From Rhizophagus irregularis (taxonomy: Eukaryota; Glomeromycota; Glomeromycetes; Glomerales; Glomeraceae), in NCBI RefSeq assembly GCF_026210795.1, contig NC_089456.1, positions 312,501 through 376,500 of the forward strand: DNA of 64,000 bases. Direction: 5' to 3'. Of this stretch, positions 2,260-59,700 are shown piece by piece. The notes beneath the pieces were generated by a model. The model was not told the DNA's origin, searched no databases, and worked only from the letters and a program-made list of their open reading frames with translations. Each line of letters begins with the position of its first letter. Position 1 is the stretch's first letter. The position numbers and the translations under genes were made by a program.

Positions 2260-4045
2260 TCATAATTAAAAACGTTTTTTGCAATGTTTTTTTATTAATA
2301 TTGTTAAAAGACGTTGCAAAACGACTTTTTATGGCAAATTATCAAACAAAAAAACGTTTTGCAACATTTTTATTAAACAATTGTGAAAATGATTTTTATT
2401 GGTAAAATTATTAAATAAAAAACGTTTTCACAACATTTTTTTTTTATATAGTTAAAATCCGCTGCGAAAAACGTTTTTATTTCGTTAAATTATCAAATAA
2501 AAAATGTTTCGCAACGTTTCTTATTAATACAATTAATAAATATTGCGAAAAATGTTTTTTTTGTTAAATGCATAAATAGAAATGTTAAACGGCGTTATTT
2601 TATGAAAAAAGATGCTGTTTTAGCATCTTTTTCATTTTTTTATCAAAAAAGGTGCTGAAACAGCATCTTTCGTATTATTTTATGAAAAAAAGATGTCATT
2701 TTAGCATCTTTTGTATTATTTTATCAAAAAAATACTAAAACAGCATCTTTTCGTAATATTTTATAAAAAAAAGATGCTGAAATGGCATCTTTTCGTATTA
2801 TTTTATCAAAAAAGATGCCAAAATGGCATCTTTTGTATTATTTTATAAAAAAGATGCTATTTTGGCATCTTTTTCATTTTTTTATCAAAAAAATGTCGAA
2901 ATGGCATCTTTTCGTATTATTTTATGAAAAAAAGATGCCGAAACGGCATCATTTATATTATTTTATGAAAAAAAATGCTGTTTCAGTATCTCTTTCATTT
3001 TTTTTATCAAAAAAATGCTGAAACAGTATCTTTCGTATTATTTTATAAAAAAGATGCTGAAACAGCATCTTTTCGTATTATTTTATGAAAAAAAAATGCC
3101 ATTTTTGGGGGCCCGTTAAAGCGAGGTAGAATTACGTGATTTAAAATTATTATAATTTGATAAATTTTTTATAAACTAAAATTAAAGTGAACTTGAAAAT
3201 CATTAAATAAGTGTATTTCAGCCTGCTCCACAAGTTTACTTAGGGAGAAAAAGTGGATTTTGAACAATGTTTTTAACTTTACATATGAGCAAACAAATTT
3301 TGCTAATCATACCCAAAAAAGGATAGATCAATTTTAACGAAATTGAAAAGTTGAATAAATCGAAAACGGTGTTCTAAACCTCATTTTGTGCTCTCTAAGT
3401 AAACTTGCAGAACAGGTCAAAATGCAGCTAGTATATGTTTATTTGGAAGGTTTTATATATAATAAAGAGTTTTATTTAAAAAAAAGAAAATTTCGAAAGT
3501 CACGTGATTCTACTCTGCTTTAACAGTCCCCCATTTTTGGCATGTTTTTCATTATTTTATCAAAAAAGATGCCGAAACAGTATCTTTCGTATTATTTTAT
3601 GAAAAAAATACTGTTTCAGCGTCTTTTTCATTTTTTTTATCAAAAAAGATGCTGAAACAGCATTTTTTCGTATTATTTTATAAAAAAAAGATGCCAAAAC
3701 ACATCTTTTAATATTATTTTATGAAAAAAAATGCTGTTTGGCATCTTTTTCACTTTTTTATCAAAAAAGATGCCAAAACAGCATCTTTTATATTATTTTA
3801 TGGAAAAAAATGCCGTTTCAGCATCTTACTCATTTTTTTTATCAAAAAAGATGCCGAAACAGCATCTTTTGTATTATTTTATAAAAAAGATGCTGTTTCG
3901 GCATCTTTTCATTTTTTTATCAAAAAAAATGCTGAAACAGCATCTTTTCGTATTATTTTATAAAAAAAAATTGATTCGCAACGGGTTTTAATCATTTTAA
4001 TAAAAATGTTGTGAAATGTTTTTTAACTTAATATTTCGCAACGTA
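2260..4045. repeat. Long tandem array of hairpin-forming units
   Basis: From 2260 to 2570 units of about 75 bp alternate AAACGTTTTGCAACATT with its complement. From 2585 to 3985 units alternate GATGCTGAAACAGCATC-type palindromes separated by ATTATTTTATGAAAAAA or its complement, so almost every unit can fold on itself. The spurious reading frames through this tract are low-complexity repeats. It is interrupted at 3108-3531 by a TIR element. Similar CGTTTTGCAACG hairpin units occur inside the elements at 15619-16438 and 16510-17235. Confidence 0.85.
3108..3531. mobile_element. TIR element inserted in the hairpin array (8-bp TSD)
   Basis: The ends read GGGGCCCGTTAAAGCGAGG and, at the far end, the inverse of GGGGACTGTTAAAGCAGAG. 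The 8-bp sequence CATTTTTG lies directly outside both ends; removing the element plus one copy rejoins the repeat array in register. Both subterminal regions carry ACGTGATT. No coding potential is visible, so this is a non-autonomous hAT-like element by TSD length. Confidence 0.85.
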
Positions 4046-5930: not shown

Positions 5931-8340
5931 TTTTTTTCTTTTTTGTAGTGTTGCTATGGGAAGGGTTCGTATGAGATATCTGATAGAAAATTTTTTTTCA
6001 GAAATTTCCTAAGATTTGTATAGGATATTTTTGATAAATAGAGATTTTTTTTTTTTTTTTTTTTTTTTGATTTCTACGCATTTGTATGGGAAGAGTTCGT
6101 ATGGAATATTTTGAAAGATTTTCTAAGAGTTTGTATAGGAAGAATTTGTATGAGATTCTTTGATAGAAAATTTTTTAAGAGATTTTCTAAGAGTTCGTAT
6201 GGGAGGAGTTTGTATGGGATATCTGAGAGAAAATTTTTTTAAGAGATTTTCTAAGAGGTCGTATGGGAAGGGTTCGTATGGGATATCTGATAGAAAATAT
6301 TTTAAGAGTTTTTCTAAGAGTTCATATGGGAAGGGTTCGTATGGGATATCTGATAGAAAATTTTTTTAAGAGATTTTCTAAGAGTTTATATGGGAAGGGT
6401 TCATATGGGATATCTGATAGAAAATTTTTTTGAGAAATTTCCTAAGATTCGTATAGGATATTTTGATAAATGGGCGGACTTATAGCAAAAGGTGGGGCTC
6501 GGACAATCACGTGATTTCGAAAAAAATCGAACTTTAATATTATTGGTTAATTTAATAAATTATAATTTATTCCATCATTTTTAAAGATTTTTAAAATCAA
6601 TTTTTTGCAAACTAGGGTAAATTTTTGCAAGGAATTCATTAAAAGCATTAGTTTTTTTCTAAAGCATCTATATTATTTGTTAAATGCAATAATAGAAAAA
6701 TACAAAATTTGCAAATTCTTAAATAAAAAATTTTTTTATTAATATATTATAAACAAAAATTTTTTTTTTCTGAAAGGTTAAATAAAGTAATATATAATTA
6801 AAATAAAATTTCAAAAAAAAAATTTTGGCCAAACCCCCCCTTTTGCTACAAGTCCGCCCAAATAGAGATTTTTTTTTTTTTTTGAGATTTCTACATGTTT
6901 GTATGGAAAGAGTTCATATGGAATATTTTGATAAAGATTTTCTAAGAGTTTGTATAGAAAGAATTCGTATGAGATTCTTTGATAGAAAATTTTTTAAGAG
7001 ATTTTCTAAGAGTTCGTATGGGAAGGGTTCGTATGGAATATCTGATAGAAAATTTTTCTAAGAACTATGTAAAGATCATCAAAAATCGGAAAATTTTTCG
7101 TGATACTAATGCAGCATACAGTATAAAAAAGGATTGATAAAAAAAAAATTAAAAAAATTTTTTTCTCTGTTAATTTCAAATATGGTAATATATTTCTCTC
7201 TTTTTCACTTTCTTATTTGACCAATTTATTTTAACTATACATTAGATTCGTAGATTAATATGGGAAGAATTCGTATAAGATTCTTTGATAGAAAATTTTT
7301 TTAAGAGATTTTCTAAGAGGTCGTATGGGAAGGGTTCGTATGGGATATCTGATAGAAAATATTTTTAAGAGTTTTTCTAAGAGTTCATATGGGAAGGGTT
7401 CGTATGGGATATCTGATAGAAAATTTTTTTGAGAAATTTCCTAAGATTCGTATAGGATATTTTGATAAATAGAGATTTTTTTTTTTTTTGAGATTTCCAC
7501 GTGTTTGTATGGAAAGAGTTCATATGGAATATTTTGATAAAGATTTTCTAAGAGTTTGTATAGAAAGAATTCGTATGAGATTCTTTGATAGAAAATTTTT
7601 AAGAGATTTTCTAAGACTCATATGGGAAAGTGGTTCACATATGGGATATCTAATAGAAAATTTTTTGAGAAATTTCCCAAGATTCGTATAGGATATTTTT
7701 GATAAATAGAGTTTTTTTTTTTTTGAGATTTCTACGTGTTTGTATGGGAAGAGTTCATATGGAATATTTTGATAAAGATTTTCTAAGAGTTGTATAGGAA
7801 GAATTCGTATGATTAACTTTGATAGAAAATTTTTTAAGAGATTTTCTAAGAGTTCGTATGGGAAGGGTTCGTATGGGATATCTGATAGAAAATTTTTTTG
7901 AGATTTCTAAGAGTTCATATGGGAAGGGGTTCGTATGGGATATCTGATAGAAAATTTTTTTTGAGAAATTTCCTAAGATTCGTATAGGATATTTTTGATA
8001 AATAGAGTTTTTTTTTTTTGAGATTTACGTGTTTGTATGGGAAGAGTTCGTATGGAATATTTTGATAAAGATTTTCTAAGAGTTTGTATAGGAAGAATTC
8101 GTATGAGATTAAATTTGATAGAAAATTTTTAAGAGATTTTCTAAGAGTTCGTATAGGAAGGGTTCGTATGGGATATCTTTGATTGATAGAGATTTCTTTT
8201 TTGTAAAATTTTTTAGGGTGTTTTTGATGGAAATTTTTTTTTTTTTGAGATTTTCTAAGATTCGTATAGGAAATAGAGAATTTTTTTTGAAATTTTAAGA
8301 ATTTGTATGAGATATTTTTAATAGAGAATTTTTTAGAATT
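5931..8340. repeat. Minisatellite of about 60-bp GTTCGTATGGGATATC units
   Basis: Units read TTCTAAGAGTTCGTATGGGA, then AGGGTTCGTATGGGATATCT, then GATAGAAAATTTTTTAAGAG, with frequent small changes and poly(T) runs. A longer-period variant includes ATGGAATATTTTGATAAAGA. Reading frames on either strand reflect the repeat and are not genes. The array is interrupted at 6471-6860 by a TIR element, and a unique-looking gap lies at about 7070-7250. Confidence 0.85.
6471..6860. mobile_element. Short TIR element inside the minisatellite
   Basis: The ends are TGGGCGGACTTATAGCAAAA and the inverse TGGGCGGACTTGTAGCAAAA. The flanking minisatellite reads GATAAA before and AATAGAGA after, which restores the normal GATAAATAGAGA if two to four bases were duplicated. 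The target duplication is therefore short, unlike the 8-bp hAT-like elements nearby. An AATCACGTGATT palindrome lies just inside the left TIR. There is no coding capacity. Confidence 0.8.
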
Positions 8341-32646: not shown

Positions 32647-33012
32647 CTTCCCAATGAAATGTAAAATCATTTCATTTGTTCTAATTAGTCTTATTAGTAA
32701 TGAAGTTTGCTAATTTTATATTATTCTTATTACATTTTTTACTATTTGACTTCATTTTTTTATCTTTACTATTGATATTCCATTTTTTTTTCTTCTATTT
32801 GTTTTTCATTTCAACACTTTTAAAGCAATATTTTAAAATCTAGAATTAATTTTCTAATTATTAATTTTAACATCTTTAGTATCATATTAATATTTATTAA
32901 TTTATAAAATTTAAATAAATTGATTATTTTATAACTAATTTGATTTTTTAATATAAATGTGAAATTATAAAGATAATTAACATCCCACATTTCTAAATCT
33001 TTAACTTTATCT

Positions 33013-35304
33013 CACTGGTCGAAATCAAAACTTTTGACCGTTAAGAGCTTTCGGCATAATTTTTGCCGATTGGTCATGTGATTCGTCACATTTTTTGACC
33101 AATGGCAAAAATCGGTAAAATCAATAAAAAAATCGACCAATAACTTTTTGGTCAATATTTTGTAATTATGTATCACATGCATTACGCGATACTACTATAT
33201 ATTAACTTTATTTAAACTTTTTTTTTCTCACACTTTCGTCTCCCCCTTTCCACTCACTTTACTTTTCCACACACTCCTTCGTCACCCTTTCGTCTTCCCC
33301 CTTTCTACTCACTCTTTCGTCTCCCTTTCCCTCTCACTTTTTCGTCTTTCCCTTTCCCCTTTCTTTCGTCCATTCCCTCTTCCTTCTTTTTAGGTGACGC
33401 TTCACTCTTTGGATACGGTATTTTGGTAAGTTTTTAATTTTTTTTATTTCCCTTGTTTTTGCCTTAATAAACTAATTTCAAATTTTTTTTTTTAATTATT
33501 TGACTTTTAGACGCGTAGGAACTTCAGTAGGAGAGTTAGATTTTTTAAAAAAATTTTATTTAACGAAACGTTTGCTAACGTTTTCGTTCTTTTTTTTTTG
33601 TAGGTTCAAGATCACCTCCTCCTTTTGGTGCATCACCGCCCGCTTTTGGTGCATCATTCTCCTTTCGGTTCACCTCCATTCGCCCTTGAAGTATAATAGA
33701 TATTAGGGTTTAGGGCATGGATTGGTCGATGGTAAGTTTCGAAGTTGGGTTAATTTCGAAACTTTAAAAGAAACGATTTACTAATAATCGTTTCTTTCTA
33801 CTTTTTGTAGGCTCCCACTTCAGGCTGATGGATCGGGTAAGTTTCGATTTTGAAACTTTTCGAAATTTTTTTTTATAACAGAATCGGTTTGCTAACCGTT
33901 TCTTAATTTTTTTTTTGTAGGTTCTTCTTCGGACTAATATTGAATAGACGGATAAGTTTCGAAGTGTATTTCGAAACTTTATTTTTTATTATTGTTAAAG
34001 AAACGGACTAACCATTTTTTTTATTTTTTTTTTATTTGTAGGTTTCCATTATCGAATTGACGGGTAAGTTTCGAAGTATCGAAACTTTAATTTTTTTATT
34101 GAAGAAACGTTAAACTAATTGTTTCTTCTTTTTTTTTGTAGGTTTCCCCCCTTGGAACTTTATTGGATGGGCAGGTAAGTTTCGAATTTTTCGAAACTTT
34201 ATTTTTTTATTGAAGAAACATTAAACTAATTGTTTCTTCTTTTTTTTTGTAGATTTCCCCCTTCGGACTTTATTGGATGGGTAAGTTTCAAATTTTTCGA
34301 AACTTCATTTTTTATTATTATTAAAGAAATGAACTAACCGTTTCATTTTTTTTTGTAGGTTTCCATTATCAATTTGGGGGTAAGTTTCGAATATATTTCA
34401 AAACTTTGATTTTTTTTTTATTGAAGAAACATTAAACTAATTGTTTCTTCTTTTTTTTGTAGATTTCCCCTTCGGACTTTATTGGATGGGCGGGTAAGTT
34501 TCAAATTTTCGAAACTTATTTTTTTTATTAAAGAAACGAACTAACCGTTTCTTTTTTTTATTTGTAGGTTTCCATTAAAGAATTGGTGGTAAGTTTCGAT
34601 ATTTCGAAACTTTGATTTTTTTTTATCGAAGAAATATTAAACTAATTGTTTCTTTTTTTTTTGTAGATTTTCCCCTTCGGACTTTATTGGATTGGTAAGT
34701 TTCGAATTTTTCGAAACTTCAGTTTTTATTATTATTAAAGAAATGAACTAACTACCGTTTCTTTACTTTTTTTTGTAGGTTTCCCCTTCGGATTTTATTA
34801 GATCGAGTAAGTTTCTTTTGAAACTTCAATTTTTTTATTTAAAAAATAGGTTACTAACCGTTTTCTCTTTTTTTTTGTAGATTTTTTACGGATTTTTATC
34901 AGGTTAGGTGAGAATGATGGGTAGATGATGGATAATGGATAATGGATGGTGGATGGTGTATATAGATGATAGATAGCTATATATTAATTTAATATGTAAT
35001 TTTTAATAAAACGAATTAATAAAATTTAATTAATAAATTATTATAAAATTTAAATCAGTAATCAGTTAAATGTACAAAAATCGGTAATAAATTATTAGGT
35101 TTATTAACAATTGTCAATTTGATTTTACCGATTTGTTGCCAATTTCTACTGATCGATTTGTTGACAAGTGGCAGGCGTTACGGTACAAATCATTTATAAA
35201 ATTAGTTGCCGATTTTTTTGGTACTGATCGGCTAAAGTTAGACCAAATTTCGTCCAACATTCGGCAATTTAAAATTTTGCCGAAATGGACTATTCCAACC
35301 AGTA
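33013..35304. mobile_element. Possible CACTA-like TIR element enclosing the intron array
   Basis: The left end CACTGGTCGAAAT and the right end (inverse TACTGGTTGGAAT) are flanked by TCT on both sides, a 3-bp duplication as in EnSpm/CACTA elements. Further in, GGCAAAAATCGGTAAAATCA (33104-33123) pairs with the inverse of 35113-35136, so the arms are long but imperfect. No transposase is visible. The interior holds a pyrimidine-rich stretch (33225-33390) and the splice-signal array at 33426-34880. The boundaries are tentative. Confidence 0.5.
33426..34880 (+). other. Tandem array of intron-like units and microexons
   Basis: After a first intron-like segment (33426-33510), eleven units of 74-91 nt follow: 33732-33810, 33837-33920, 33951-34041, 34064-34141, 34175-34252, 34281-34358, 34380-34462, 34494-34567, 34589-34666, 34695-34778, 34807-34880. 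Each starts GTAAGTTTC (one has GATAAGTTTC) and ends in a T run plus GTAG or TTGTAGG. Each has a branch-like ACTAA about 20-25 nt from the 3' end, and an inverted pair AAGTTTCGAA/TTCGAAACTT near the donor. Exon-like pieces of 21-33 nt alternate mainly between GTTTCCATTATC.. and TTTCCCCTTCGGACTTTATT types. No long conserved protein frame runs through the pieces. Upstream, 33608-33660 encodes an FG-like SPPPFGASPPAFGASF before a stop. It could be a non-coding transcript or a decayed gene. Confidence 0.75.
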
Positions 35305-35307
35305 TCT

Positions 35308-56785: not shown

Positions 56786-59700
56786 TACTTGTAGCCGAAA
56801 TCCCTCTAGTTTCGGCCTAGTTTGATTTCGAGTTTCGGACGTAGTTATTGGTATTAAAAAACTGCTTTCCGAAATTGAAAGCCTTTTTAGCGAAAATCAA
56901 GTATGTAAACATATTATTATAAGTCTGAAACCTAAAAATAGAAATATTGATGATTGATCATTAAATCGATCAACTGATCGATCTAAAATCTAAATCTACA
57001 TAAAAATTTTCTCACGAAACATTTTTTTTTGTAGTTTGTCATTTGTCCTATAACCTATAAACCCACATACTTTCTTTATTTTCTACAGTCTTTTTTTCTT
57101 TTACTCATCTTTTCCACCTTATTCTCTTATAATAAACAGTTAAACACTATAACTGTATAACAATATAACCTATTAAAAATTTTAAATAAATGTCATCCAG
57201 TTCTTTAAGGAAAGTAGGCGGGCGTCCTATTAGTAAGATATGGGAGTGGTTTGTAAAAGGTGATCTAGTGCCTAATTCCCCAAAGGATATTATTCGACGA
57301 CGTGCTCGATTTTGTGAATATCATTGGTTTACAGCTAAGGTGGCAAAACTTAAGAAACATCTCGCATATGAATGTACCAAAGTTGATTCGATACCAAAAT
57401 CAGCATTTTAATGATCTATAACTAATAACTGTGATGATTCAGAAGATGATAGTTATGATCTTCTACGAACGTCACCACTAAATCTAAGAAAGCAAAAATC
57501 AAATGATAGATCACAAACTCATATTGATGACCATTATGAAAATTTTCCTACTCCACTGGGTAAAGAAGATCAAATTAACAAAGCATTGGCTAAAATGTTT
57601 GTATGTTGCAACTTACCGTTTGCTCTTATTGAACATCCTTTTTTTATCAAATTTGTTAAAACTTTACGTGCTACCTATAATCTTCCAAGCCATTGGATCC
57701 TAACAGAAACTCTTATTATTCAAGAAATTTCTAGAATTAACCTCAAAGTAAACAGAATAATTAATGAAGAGAATAATATGACCATTGCTTTTGATGGATG
57801 GACCAACCCCACTGGACAATCAATATATGATTATTGTTTGATTACTGAAGATCGTAAAGAATATTTATGGTGTTCAAAGGATTATTCTAATGTTCCTCAT
57901 CACACTGGTGCATTTCTTGAAGACGAAATTCTTAAAATTGTGGATAATATTGGACCTGAAAGATTGGCAGCTGTAGTTTCAGATAATGCACCAAATGCGT
58001 GTGTTGCACAAAGAATTCTTTGTGCAAAATATTCTCACATTTTAAATATCCGTTGTATGGCTCATTGCATTAACTTGATTACAAAGGACTTGTGTAAACA
58101 TTCATTTGTTGTAGATACAATTCGAAAAGTTGGCATTGTTCACCAGTATTTTACAATGTCTCATGCTCCATGCCAATTCCTTAAAGATTCTGTCAAAATT
58201 TTACAAATTAAAGGAGGAGGATTAAAAAGTCATACAAAGACATGGTGGTCTACAATGTGGGATTGTGTTAGCTCTATTGTAAGACTTGAACTTGCTTTTG
58301 CAAGGGTAAGTGATTAATTAATGTAATTTATGAATTATGGTTTTATAATTTATTAAGATATTTATTTTATTATTATAATATTATATTATTTATTTAGGTT
58401 CTTTCGGAACATGAAAATGATATTAAAAATCAGGTAAAAGATATTCTTCATGATCGAAATTTTTATGAAAATTGTCGAATAATTGCATCCATTCTTCATC
58501 CCCTTAAGGTGACTGTAGGATGCCTAGAGTCAAGAACTTCAACGCTTGCAAACTGTTATGTTCATTTATTGTTATTAACAGGTGCTATTTATCGAATGTC
58601 AAACCAAAACATTCAATTTAAAAATCATTGTATAATTAAATTTAACGAAAGATTTCATGAATTTTCTGATGATCTTTTTCTATTGGCTTTTTTTTGCATC
58701 CTCATTATCATGGTAAGTTGAGATTCAAAATTTGGTATTTAAATTAATTAATTTAATATTTTAACATAATTTATCATTTTATTTTAGGAAATGGTATAAA
58801 TCCGAACCAATTTCATAATATCACTCTCAAAGCAGCTCGATTTGAGGATGATGGGCCATAATCAAAACTCATGTGCAAAGCTACTTACTCAACTGCGAAA
58901 ATATATGAAAAAGAAAACGCCATTTAACCAAAATTATAATTATAAATCAGATACACCTACTATTTGATGGGAGACAGCTCAAAATTCAAAAAAAGAATGG
59001 GAGTTACAAGCTTTGGCACTTCGACTGTTTGCCGTATCTTCATATAGTGCTTTTTGTGAGCGCTCATTTTCAGTTTTAGAGTGGTTTTATAGTCAAAGAC
59101 GTACAAAATTAGCTGCAGATCGGGTAGAAGGCATGTGCAAATTGCATACTTATTACATTACAAATGCCAAACGTGAATTACCTTACTATGCTATTGATAC
59201 TTCAGAAAATTCTACGCGCGAAAAAATGATTAATACTATTGTTGAAATTAGCGATGAGTTGGAAGTCAATGATTTTGATTTTTTATATAATGAAAATATA
59301 ATTGATATGGTTATTGATATGTCACAATCATATGATCTAGATGTTACTTTAAATATAGATATTGAATCTCAGATTTTTAATATGGAACGAAGAGAACCTG
59401 AGAATAAGGTAACAGTCGATCAAAATAGACAAACTGTTGTATTGGCTCCAGAACGTGAAGATTTTGATATTGAGGCATTAATAGCCAAAGAAATTGATGA
59501 TAATGAAAACTGATTTTTTTTAAATTTTTTTTTTTTTTGCAATTTAACATTTTAGCGTAATAATAATAATAATTAGGTATGGTAATGATTATAAATTTAT
59601 AATAATGATAATAAAATTTAAATAATATAATATAAAAAATAAATAAATGCCAATTTTTTATAATAAAATAAGTAAATACATAATAAAAAATGGTTTCGGA

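Follow-up and report, generated by a model that had tools for sequence, protein, structure and literature searches.

The window, the whole 64-kb stretch of Rhizophagus irregularis DNA analysed here, contains eleven intron-like units in tandem, each of 74-90 nt and together covering positions 33732-34880 (Table 1). They lie within a larger element, the cargo of which reads from the left end as a TATA-like stretch and leader, an ordinary-looking intron, a degenerate unit, a longer exon, the array and a last exon. The units were located by direct reading of the sequence and by a parser that required a TAG acceptor; the segments between them measure, in order, 26, 31, 22, 33, 28, 21, 31, 21, 28 and 28 nt. 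The first-pass annotation had proposed eleven introns of 74-91 nt separated by segments of 21-33 nt. Parsing agrees with the spacing, and the eleven-unit array was borne out by reading, parsing and a scan against resampled sequence, with the unit size corrected as above. The start of the array had been placed at 33426, where an ordinary-looking intron without a hairpin is found; the first hairpin unit begins at 33732. Two alternating types of segment had also been described, and this alternation is present as a 205-bp higher-order period over only part of the array.

The units have the anatomy of spliceosomal introns, with a donor, a branch site, a pyrimidine tract and an AG at normal spacing. 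Ten of the eleven begin with GTAAGTTT and carry a GT donor, all end in a T-run followed by TAG, and the branch motif is ACTAA in ten and GCTAA in the unit at 33837, so that CTAA is common to all; the ends and the branch motif had been recognised correctly in the first-pass annotation. The unit at 33952 begins with ATAAGTTT. Its donor had been read as GA at 33951 and is in fact ATAAGT from 33952, with the G at +1 changed to A; the same donor is GT in all five other aligned copies. The splice signals, which the first-pass annotation had described as usable throughout, are thus intact in most of the array, with this AT donor as the deviation.

Units of this kind were also sought with a scanner that takes GTAAGT or GCAAGT as the donor and requires a stem of 7 bp or more, with a T-run and AG after it. 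It recovered nine of the eleven in the array, whereas 300 Markov resamples of the same stretch yielded 0.02 on average and never more than 1, and the array is thus not a product of chance. The two units missed were the one with the AT donor and one with a stem mismatch. In the rest of the 64 kb, on both strands, the scanner reported three sites with 7-bp stems, whereas resampling the 64 kb 20 times gave 0.45 on average and never more than 2. Ordinary GTAAGT sites in the window have a stem of at least 7 bp in 5 cases out of 31 (3.4 expected), a hairpin frequency not beyond chance. The 7-bp minimum applies to scans of the window and of the long partner elements described below; a minimum of 6 bp was used for stretches around isolated matches and for counts in the second transposon family.

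The inverted repeat that had been noted near each donor corresponds to a predicted stem. From about position +3 onward the donor bases are paired in the minimum-energy folds of all eleven units and in the centroid folds of ten, with donor stems of 7-16 bp. A second stem holds the branch site in its loop in nine units; units 2 and 11 have this site partly within the stem. Fold z scores range from -1.4 to -6.1, against about -0.5 for the neighbouring ordinary intron, the weakest folds being those of units 11 and 3. The second hairpin rests on folding, the covariation tests given below covering the donor hairpin, and by eye it was not seen in several other array families. This second hairpin, the transposon and the arrays in another transposon family were all absent from the first-pass annotation.

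Table 1. Features of the array-bearing element and its immediate surroundings (positions in the window).
Feature	Positions	Strand	Basis or remark
Left target duplication, TCT	33010..33012	.	sequence
Non-autonomous CACTA-like transposon with array	33013..35304	+	C28:345513-347804; 2.29 kb; similarity edges, ends, copies
Left terminal region common with long partners	33013..33136	+	124-bp shared segment in L021, L022, L023, L024, L027
TATA-like stretch and CT-rich leader, putative start of a transcription unit	33197..33425	+	by eye
Ordinary-looking GT-AG intron, no hairpin	33426..33510	+	parsed; z -0.46, like chance
Degenerate unit (branch-point hairpin and TAG acceptor, no clear donor)	33511..33603	+	by eye
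Hairpin intron 1	33732..33810	+	parsed; z -6.1
Hairpin intron 2	33837..33920	+	z -2.7; partner of donor arm farther off, not in centroid; branch site partly in stem
Hairpin intron 3	33952..34041	+	donor AT; z -2.1; 10/200 shuffles as good
Hairpin intron 4	34064..34141	+	parsed; z -3.7
Hairpin intron 5	34175..34252	+	parsed; z -5.0
Hairpin intron 6	34281..34358	+	parsed; z -2.4
Hairpin intron 7	34380..34462	+	parsed; z -2.9
Hairpin intron 8	34494..34567	+	parsed; z -3.7
Hairpin intron 9	34589..34666	+	parsed; z -2.9
Hairpin intron 10	34695..34778	+	parsed; z -3.1
Hairpin intron 11	34807..34880	+	weakest fold, z -1.4; 17/200 shuffles as good; branch site partly in stem
Putative last exon, AATAAA-like signal near 35005	34881..35010	+	by eye only
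Right terminal region common with long partners	35167..35304	+	131-137-bp shared segments in L021, L022, L023, L024, L027
Right target duplication, TCT	35305..35307	.	sequence

A search for further copies of the unit, suggested in the first-pass annotation, found them throughout the R. irregularis genome (146,748,485 bases in 32 contigs): the 205-bp double unit has at least 128 matches, 40 of 147 candidate stretches having been scored. The same unit gave no match in the PLSDB plasmids. Among 20 fetched array loci, similarity to the window begins at 33012-33014 in 12 and stops at 35301-35303 in 15, and at these edges most of the copies examined have the ends CACTGGTC and GACCAGTG, that is, terminal repeats of the CACTR type; the right end of the window element is CCAGT followed by A, the last base being G in other copies. 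Allowing up to 3 mismatches, the genome contains 66 copies of the left end and 116 of the right (reversed controls, 0). Both ends were tried in 11 array copies and were intact in nine, the right end being broken in L009 and L015; seven of these nine (L001, L002, L005, L007, L008, L019 and the window element) are flanked by a perfect 3-bp target duplication, which is off by one base in L004 and L006. Of the 13 places matching 33197-33420 in the leader, 11 are the window and fetched array loci, and the layout of the degenerate unit recurs in L002, L005, L006 and L009.

When the ends were paired by eye, short elements were obtained together with a group measuring 7.8-8.1 kb. To the latter belong five long partners (L021-L024 and L027), which share the ends of the window element over 124 and 131-137 bp and have reading frames on the minus strand; L023 has in addition an 81-bp stretch near its left end in common with the window element. 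Four of the five have perfect 3-bp duplications (that of L027 is off by one base), and the scanner found no hairpin introns in any of them. One frame, L021:1392-3332(-), matches PF02992 (Transposase_21) in a Pfam scan with 38.4 bits at a cut-off of 28.6. The other five of six frames taken from L021 and L022 had no Pfam match, so that a Tnp2-type transposase within identical ends was found through L021 only, the L022 frame tested being without a match. Two loci of about 8 kb, L025 and L026, combine array sequence with further inserts; the insert of L025 has a MULE-type frame, and many of the units parsed in L026 lack a GT start. The window element, L021 and L022 each have the hexamer TGCCGA or its complement TCGGCA at either end, and GACCAA with its complement is another candidate subterminal motif near the ends; both are few in number, and in L021 and L022 they are found in the middle as well. 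Given the ends, the 3-bp duplication and the long partners, one of which codes for a PF02992 transposase, the window element is a non-autonomous CACTA-type transposon with the array as its cargo. The test of the ends rejects an introner in the usual sense, which is bounded by the splice sites themselves and occurs as single copies dispersed over host genes: the element ends at 33013 and 35304, away from any splice site, and the hairpin introns sit within 33732-34880, in the middle of the transposon.

The copies have similar series of exon lengths, which indicates that the array predates their spread; the number of units nevertheless varies among them, the window element having one more than L005 and L006. 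L007 carries a second, different array upstream, and L011 and L015 have units in comparable positions. The first-pass annotation had regarded the introns as duplicated in tandem with their microexons, and the units do recur together with these exons. It had also considered a multi-microexon non-coding product, which is probably right: in each of nine copies, stops interrupt all three frames of the joined exons, five of these copies having been cleanly parsed (a unit was missed by the parser in L001, L002, L004 and L009). A protein-coding microexon gene was rejected on the same grounds. When GT or AT was allowed at the donor, 74 of the 78 units parsed had GT. Non-CpG divergence among six copies, measured on five introns and three exons that aligned cleanly and were picked by eye, is 161/5426 (0.030) in introns, 84/1095 (0.077) in exons and 88/4711 (0.019) in the 3' flank; class-wise divergences from the six-copy alignment of the whole array, which pairs non-orthologous middle units, were left out. 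The exons thus diverge more than the introns that separate them, whereas a coding gene would show the opposite. However, the low divergence of the introns is no proof of selection, because the 3' flank is even less diverged.

Within the CACTA array family the donor stem hardly varies. Its eight donor pairs did not covary more than shuffles do (94.6% of cells paired, 94.7% in shuffles), and two CpG pairs of the donor helix are in decay, 7 of 31 cells being unpaired at each, a loss as frequent as shuffling predicts; the dispersed CACTA copies are thus drifting. The comparison between array families gave a different result. The sample comprised 89 distinct sequences among 100 listed out of 974 genome matches to the donor hairpin, and scoring was confined to the 51 whose inner loops measure 9 nt or more. 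In these, the three stem pairs that come next after the searched motif are Watson-Crick in 43, 41 and 34 cases, where shuffling predicts 23.3, 15.4 and 17.8, and the observed level was reached in 0 of 5000 shuffles, under a null that exchanges partners among sequences and leaves their relatedness in. At the middle pair all four Watson-Crick types are present. Two Y-R pairs inside the motif are near chance (15/89 C-A and 17/89 A-C mismatches, with about 20 of each expected from the column totals). The support comes from the inner pairs, and it points to compensating stem changes between array families.

The 974 matches themselves are exact occurrences of a strict donor hairpin, GTAAGTTTYRAA-N(0-25)-TTYRAAACTT, against 2 for the control. 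Among the 100 listed, 67 fall into same-strand clusters with gaps below 1.5 kb, where a random distribution would give 0.9%. Gaps shorter than 400 bp number 36, and 22 of them measure 95-145 bp. Twenty stretches around palindromic matches, chosen for the palindrome and counted by eye with a loose pattern, contain at least one acceptor-closed candidate in 19 cases (the exception is L033) and at least two in 10; one of them, L038, may lie inside a CACTA copy. Where several candidates occur in such a stretch, the exons differ from those of the window array. Around isolated matches, six of 11 stretches had at least two hairpin introns, four had one and one had none.

Two loci, L048 and L049, have in common an element of 3.8-4.2 kb with CATCAGGAAA.. 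end repeats unrelated to CACTGGTC. The end of this second family (CATCRGGAAA) is present in 76 copies at up to 2 mismatches, against 0 for the control. Five members with such ends (L048, L049, L067, L068 and L069) contain 8-12 hairpin introns each; between these lie exons of 20-34 nt, in series that resemble one another from member to member and are interspersed with larger gaps. For L068 and L069 the spacing of the ends was the sole criterion of choice, the right end of L067 was taken from the list of end matches only, and longer end pairs were left out of the sample. The four members with both flanks printed have 2-bp duplications (tt, ta, ta and aa), which are weak evidence in AT-rich DNA. 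L054, with 8 hairpin introns, and L070, with 2, have no CATCRGGAAA end according to the script pattern and were left out of the family. Judged by ends and units, arrays with other exons are thus carried by a second, unrelated TIR transposon family, and their presence there marks the array as a module rather than a chance feature of a single element.

Taken together, these observations are probably best read as DNA transposons that carry a non-coding transcription unit composed of tandem, self-folding spliceosomal introns. According to this reading, the array would be transcribed from its own leader and spliced to a short non-coding RNA, and the longer elements would supply, in trans, the transposase that moves the window element. 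What the introns would be for is the least certain part. Dense self-folding introns might make the transcript look host-like and intron-rich, so that the surveillance of unspliced or badly spliced transposon RNA is evaded. Some plant elements are spliced, as insertions, out of the host transcript, and in the same way the many donors and acceptors of the array might allow the transcripts of a host gene reading through the insertion to remove it; this alternative use is equally among the least certain steps. The surveillance-evasion role is a guess, for which parts of the published record offer a background: in Cryptococcus, transposon introns that are spliced poorly cause the spliceosome to stall and trigger RNAi (PMC6232588), in C. 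elegans introns can be a barrier to nuclear RNAi (PMC5554785), and R. irregularis has 40 AGO-like genes (PMC11075540). It is a tentative further suggestion, to which we would give a minor share of belief, that unrelated transposons independently acquired or swapped the intron-array module, that its stems have long been kept working by compensation, and that the host spliceosome serves them as a shield or an exit route, through evasion of RNA silencing or self-splicing from host transcripts. The stem around the donor could aid splicing, but it could equally impede it.

Among the other explanations, the one that survives best, although we find it doubtful, holds that the array is non-coding filler, grown by unequal crossing-over in a non-autonomous transposon, transcribed or not, and without function. 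The drift of the copies, the uncompensated decay of the CpG pairs and the differing number of units between copies are what it would lead one to expect, and it is weakened by the compensated inner pairs among array families, by the retention of the GT donor in nearly all parsed units and by the occurrence of arrays in two unrelated transposon families. This last fact, the similarity of modules in different transposons, can be turned in favour of a captured host gene, namely a multi-microexon non-coding RNA gene family of the fungus picked up by both families. CACTA elements often capture host sequence. We nevertheless consider this origin rather unlikely, since the joined exons are not coding and since no array is established outside a transposon in this genome, L050-L054 and L070 being loci without mapped bounds.

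The first-pass annotation had offered, as one of two possibilities, an introner-like expansion, in which each unit of 75-90 nt would be a mobile intron multiplied in tandem and through host genes. It was right about the many related units, as the 974 donor hairpins attest, and the stretches with a single hairpin intron around four of the 11 isolated matches, a two-hairpin intron-like stretch in the DNA flanking L027 and the excess of scanner sites in the window outside the array all lean the same way. But the units are cargo of a transposon, the mobile unit ends off the splice sites, and the units recur in tandem together with their exons; even around isolated matches two or more hairpin introns are the commoner outcome, with one pair 345 nt apart. 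The expansion of single mobile introns is therefore, in our estimate, improbable.

Still less probable is a source of small RNAs, in which the hairpins of the transcript or of its lariats would be diced and the array would be a trigger or a target of RNAi, comparable to mirtrons or trap loci. The hairpins are indeed present in every minimum-energy fold. Stems of 7-16 bp, however, are short for Dicer, and Rfam at gathering scores had no match in the window. The large AGO family of the fungus and its small-RNA-rich regions with young genes (PMC10234402) would be congenial to such a source. A snoRNA host gene was likewise rejected, the intron hairpins being short and without an Rfam match; a tRNA scan of the window also gave nothing. 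Finally, the notion that the palindromes are subterminal DNA sites for a CACTA accessory protein, with the look of introns as a by-product, draws on the dense subterminal repeats of CACTA elements, which are able to form many stem-loops, such as the 12 at the right border of soybean Tgmt* (PMC2613891), and is highly improbable, because the array is missing from long partners that have these ends, hairpin introns of the same type are found in a TIR family with different ends, the inner stem pairs compensate although protein sites need no compensation, and the T-run is strand-biased with the branch site and AG at intron spacing; the presence of other candidate subterminal motifs near the ends (TGCCGA, GACCAA and their complements) is a weak argument against it, as these are few and lie in the middle of L021 and L022 as well.

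The preferred reading, of transposons carrying a transcription unit of self-folding introns, can be set beside several known systems. The window element resembles CACTA/EnSpm transposons in its CACTG-type terminal repeats, its 3-bp target duplication and a genomic partner that shares its ends and codes for PF02992; it differs from them in a cargo of eleven tandem hairpin introns and microexons with no reading frame. A plant CACTA gene such as the one in Tgmt* also has many small exons and erratic splicing, but it is a coding gene (PMC2613891). Introners (PMC9860276) are likewise many similar introns per genome with a tie to non-autonomous DNA transposons; there, however, the mobile element is the intron, whereas here the introns are internal to a larger transposon, and the tandem copying includes their exons. 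The symmetrical sister stwintrons of Hypoxylaceae (PMC8469720) are proliferated fungal introns too, with inverted repeats able to fold the intron. These are terminal repeats of 45-55 nt, found in introns at novel gene positions and with no flanking duplications; the present hairpins of 7-16 bp are at the donor, in tandem and inside transposons. The SP7-like effectors come from the same fungus and also combine repeats with a conserved intron, but as PMC11333574 describes them they are coding, with one conserved intron before the protein repeats and no microexon array, and on this comparison the SP7 family was rejected as the source of the repeated exons.

Our search of the open-licence literature found no description of such arrays (supplements, subscription papers and preprints lay outside it), and the tandem hairpin-intron array as cargo, in two unrelated transposon families, is to that extent a new feature. 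If the arrays are spliced, a non-coding transposon has eleven introns in 1.15 kb and two unrelated families do alike. The idea that introns protect transposon RNA from RNAi would then become testable through natural variants (full arrays, short arrays and broken donors such as that at 33952), in a fungus with a large AGO family. The arrays would also bear on the origin of new introns: were the module reading true, they would offer the genome a lasting supply of introns already made, and they may reveal a new way for mobile DNA to exploit the splicing machinery of the cell. For gene finders they are a warning, as they can be mistaken for genes or for plain repeats.

Three copies of the CACTA-type element, at loci L001, L004 and L008, carry a stretch of about 896 bp that has no counterpart in the window element (see table). 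A long reading frame runs through it on the minus strand, and the stretch is perhaps a nested retroelement piece. The window copy itself includes about 70 nt (33612-33680) covered by only two, L012 and L014, of the 20 genome loci fetched by match to the 205-bp double unit of the array. One frame of this segment resembles, by eye, a Pro/Phe-Gly-Ala-Ser repeat, and perhaps a piece of a host gene has been captured here.

Further hairpin introns or intron-like stretches were seen at other loci. At L007 a second array (564-2090 of that stretch), with a different exon type and several donors other than GTAAGT, lies upstream of a window-type array, both within one element. More than 5 kb is common to contigs C8 and C9 (stretches L051 and L052), and additional hairpin introns are found inside it. 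In the DNA flanking the long CACTA partner of L027, a two-hairpin intron-like stretch lies from 8182 on (reverse-strand count), about 10 bp from the end of the partner.

The broken right end of the element at L015 (contig C18) runs on, near 3445-3486, into TTAGGG-like repeats; TTAGGG is the telomere repeat given for R. irregularis in PMC10234402.

Elsewhere in the window, GC skew reaches 0.42 at 6001-8000, distant from all other 2-kb windows. Two reading frames are listed in the table, and the DUF659 domain in one of them is typical of hAT-like transposon remnants.

Coordinates of the extra stretch and of reading frames elsewhere in the window
Feature	Location	Strand or count
Stretch of ~896 bp, L001	1599-2493	counted on reverse strand
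Stretch of ~896 bp, L004	1467-2363	
Stretch of ~896 bp, L008	1669-2564	counted on reverse strand
DUF659-domain reading frame	57415-58317	
Reading frame built from a repeated unit of ~24 residues	14109-14606	(-)
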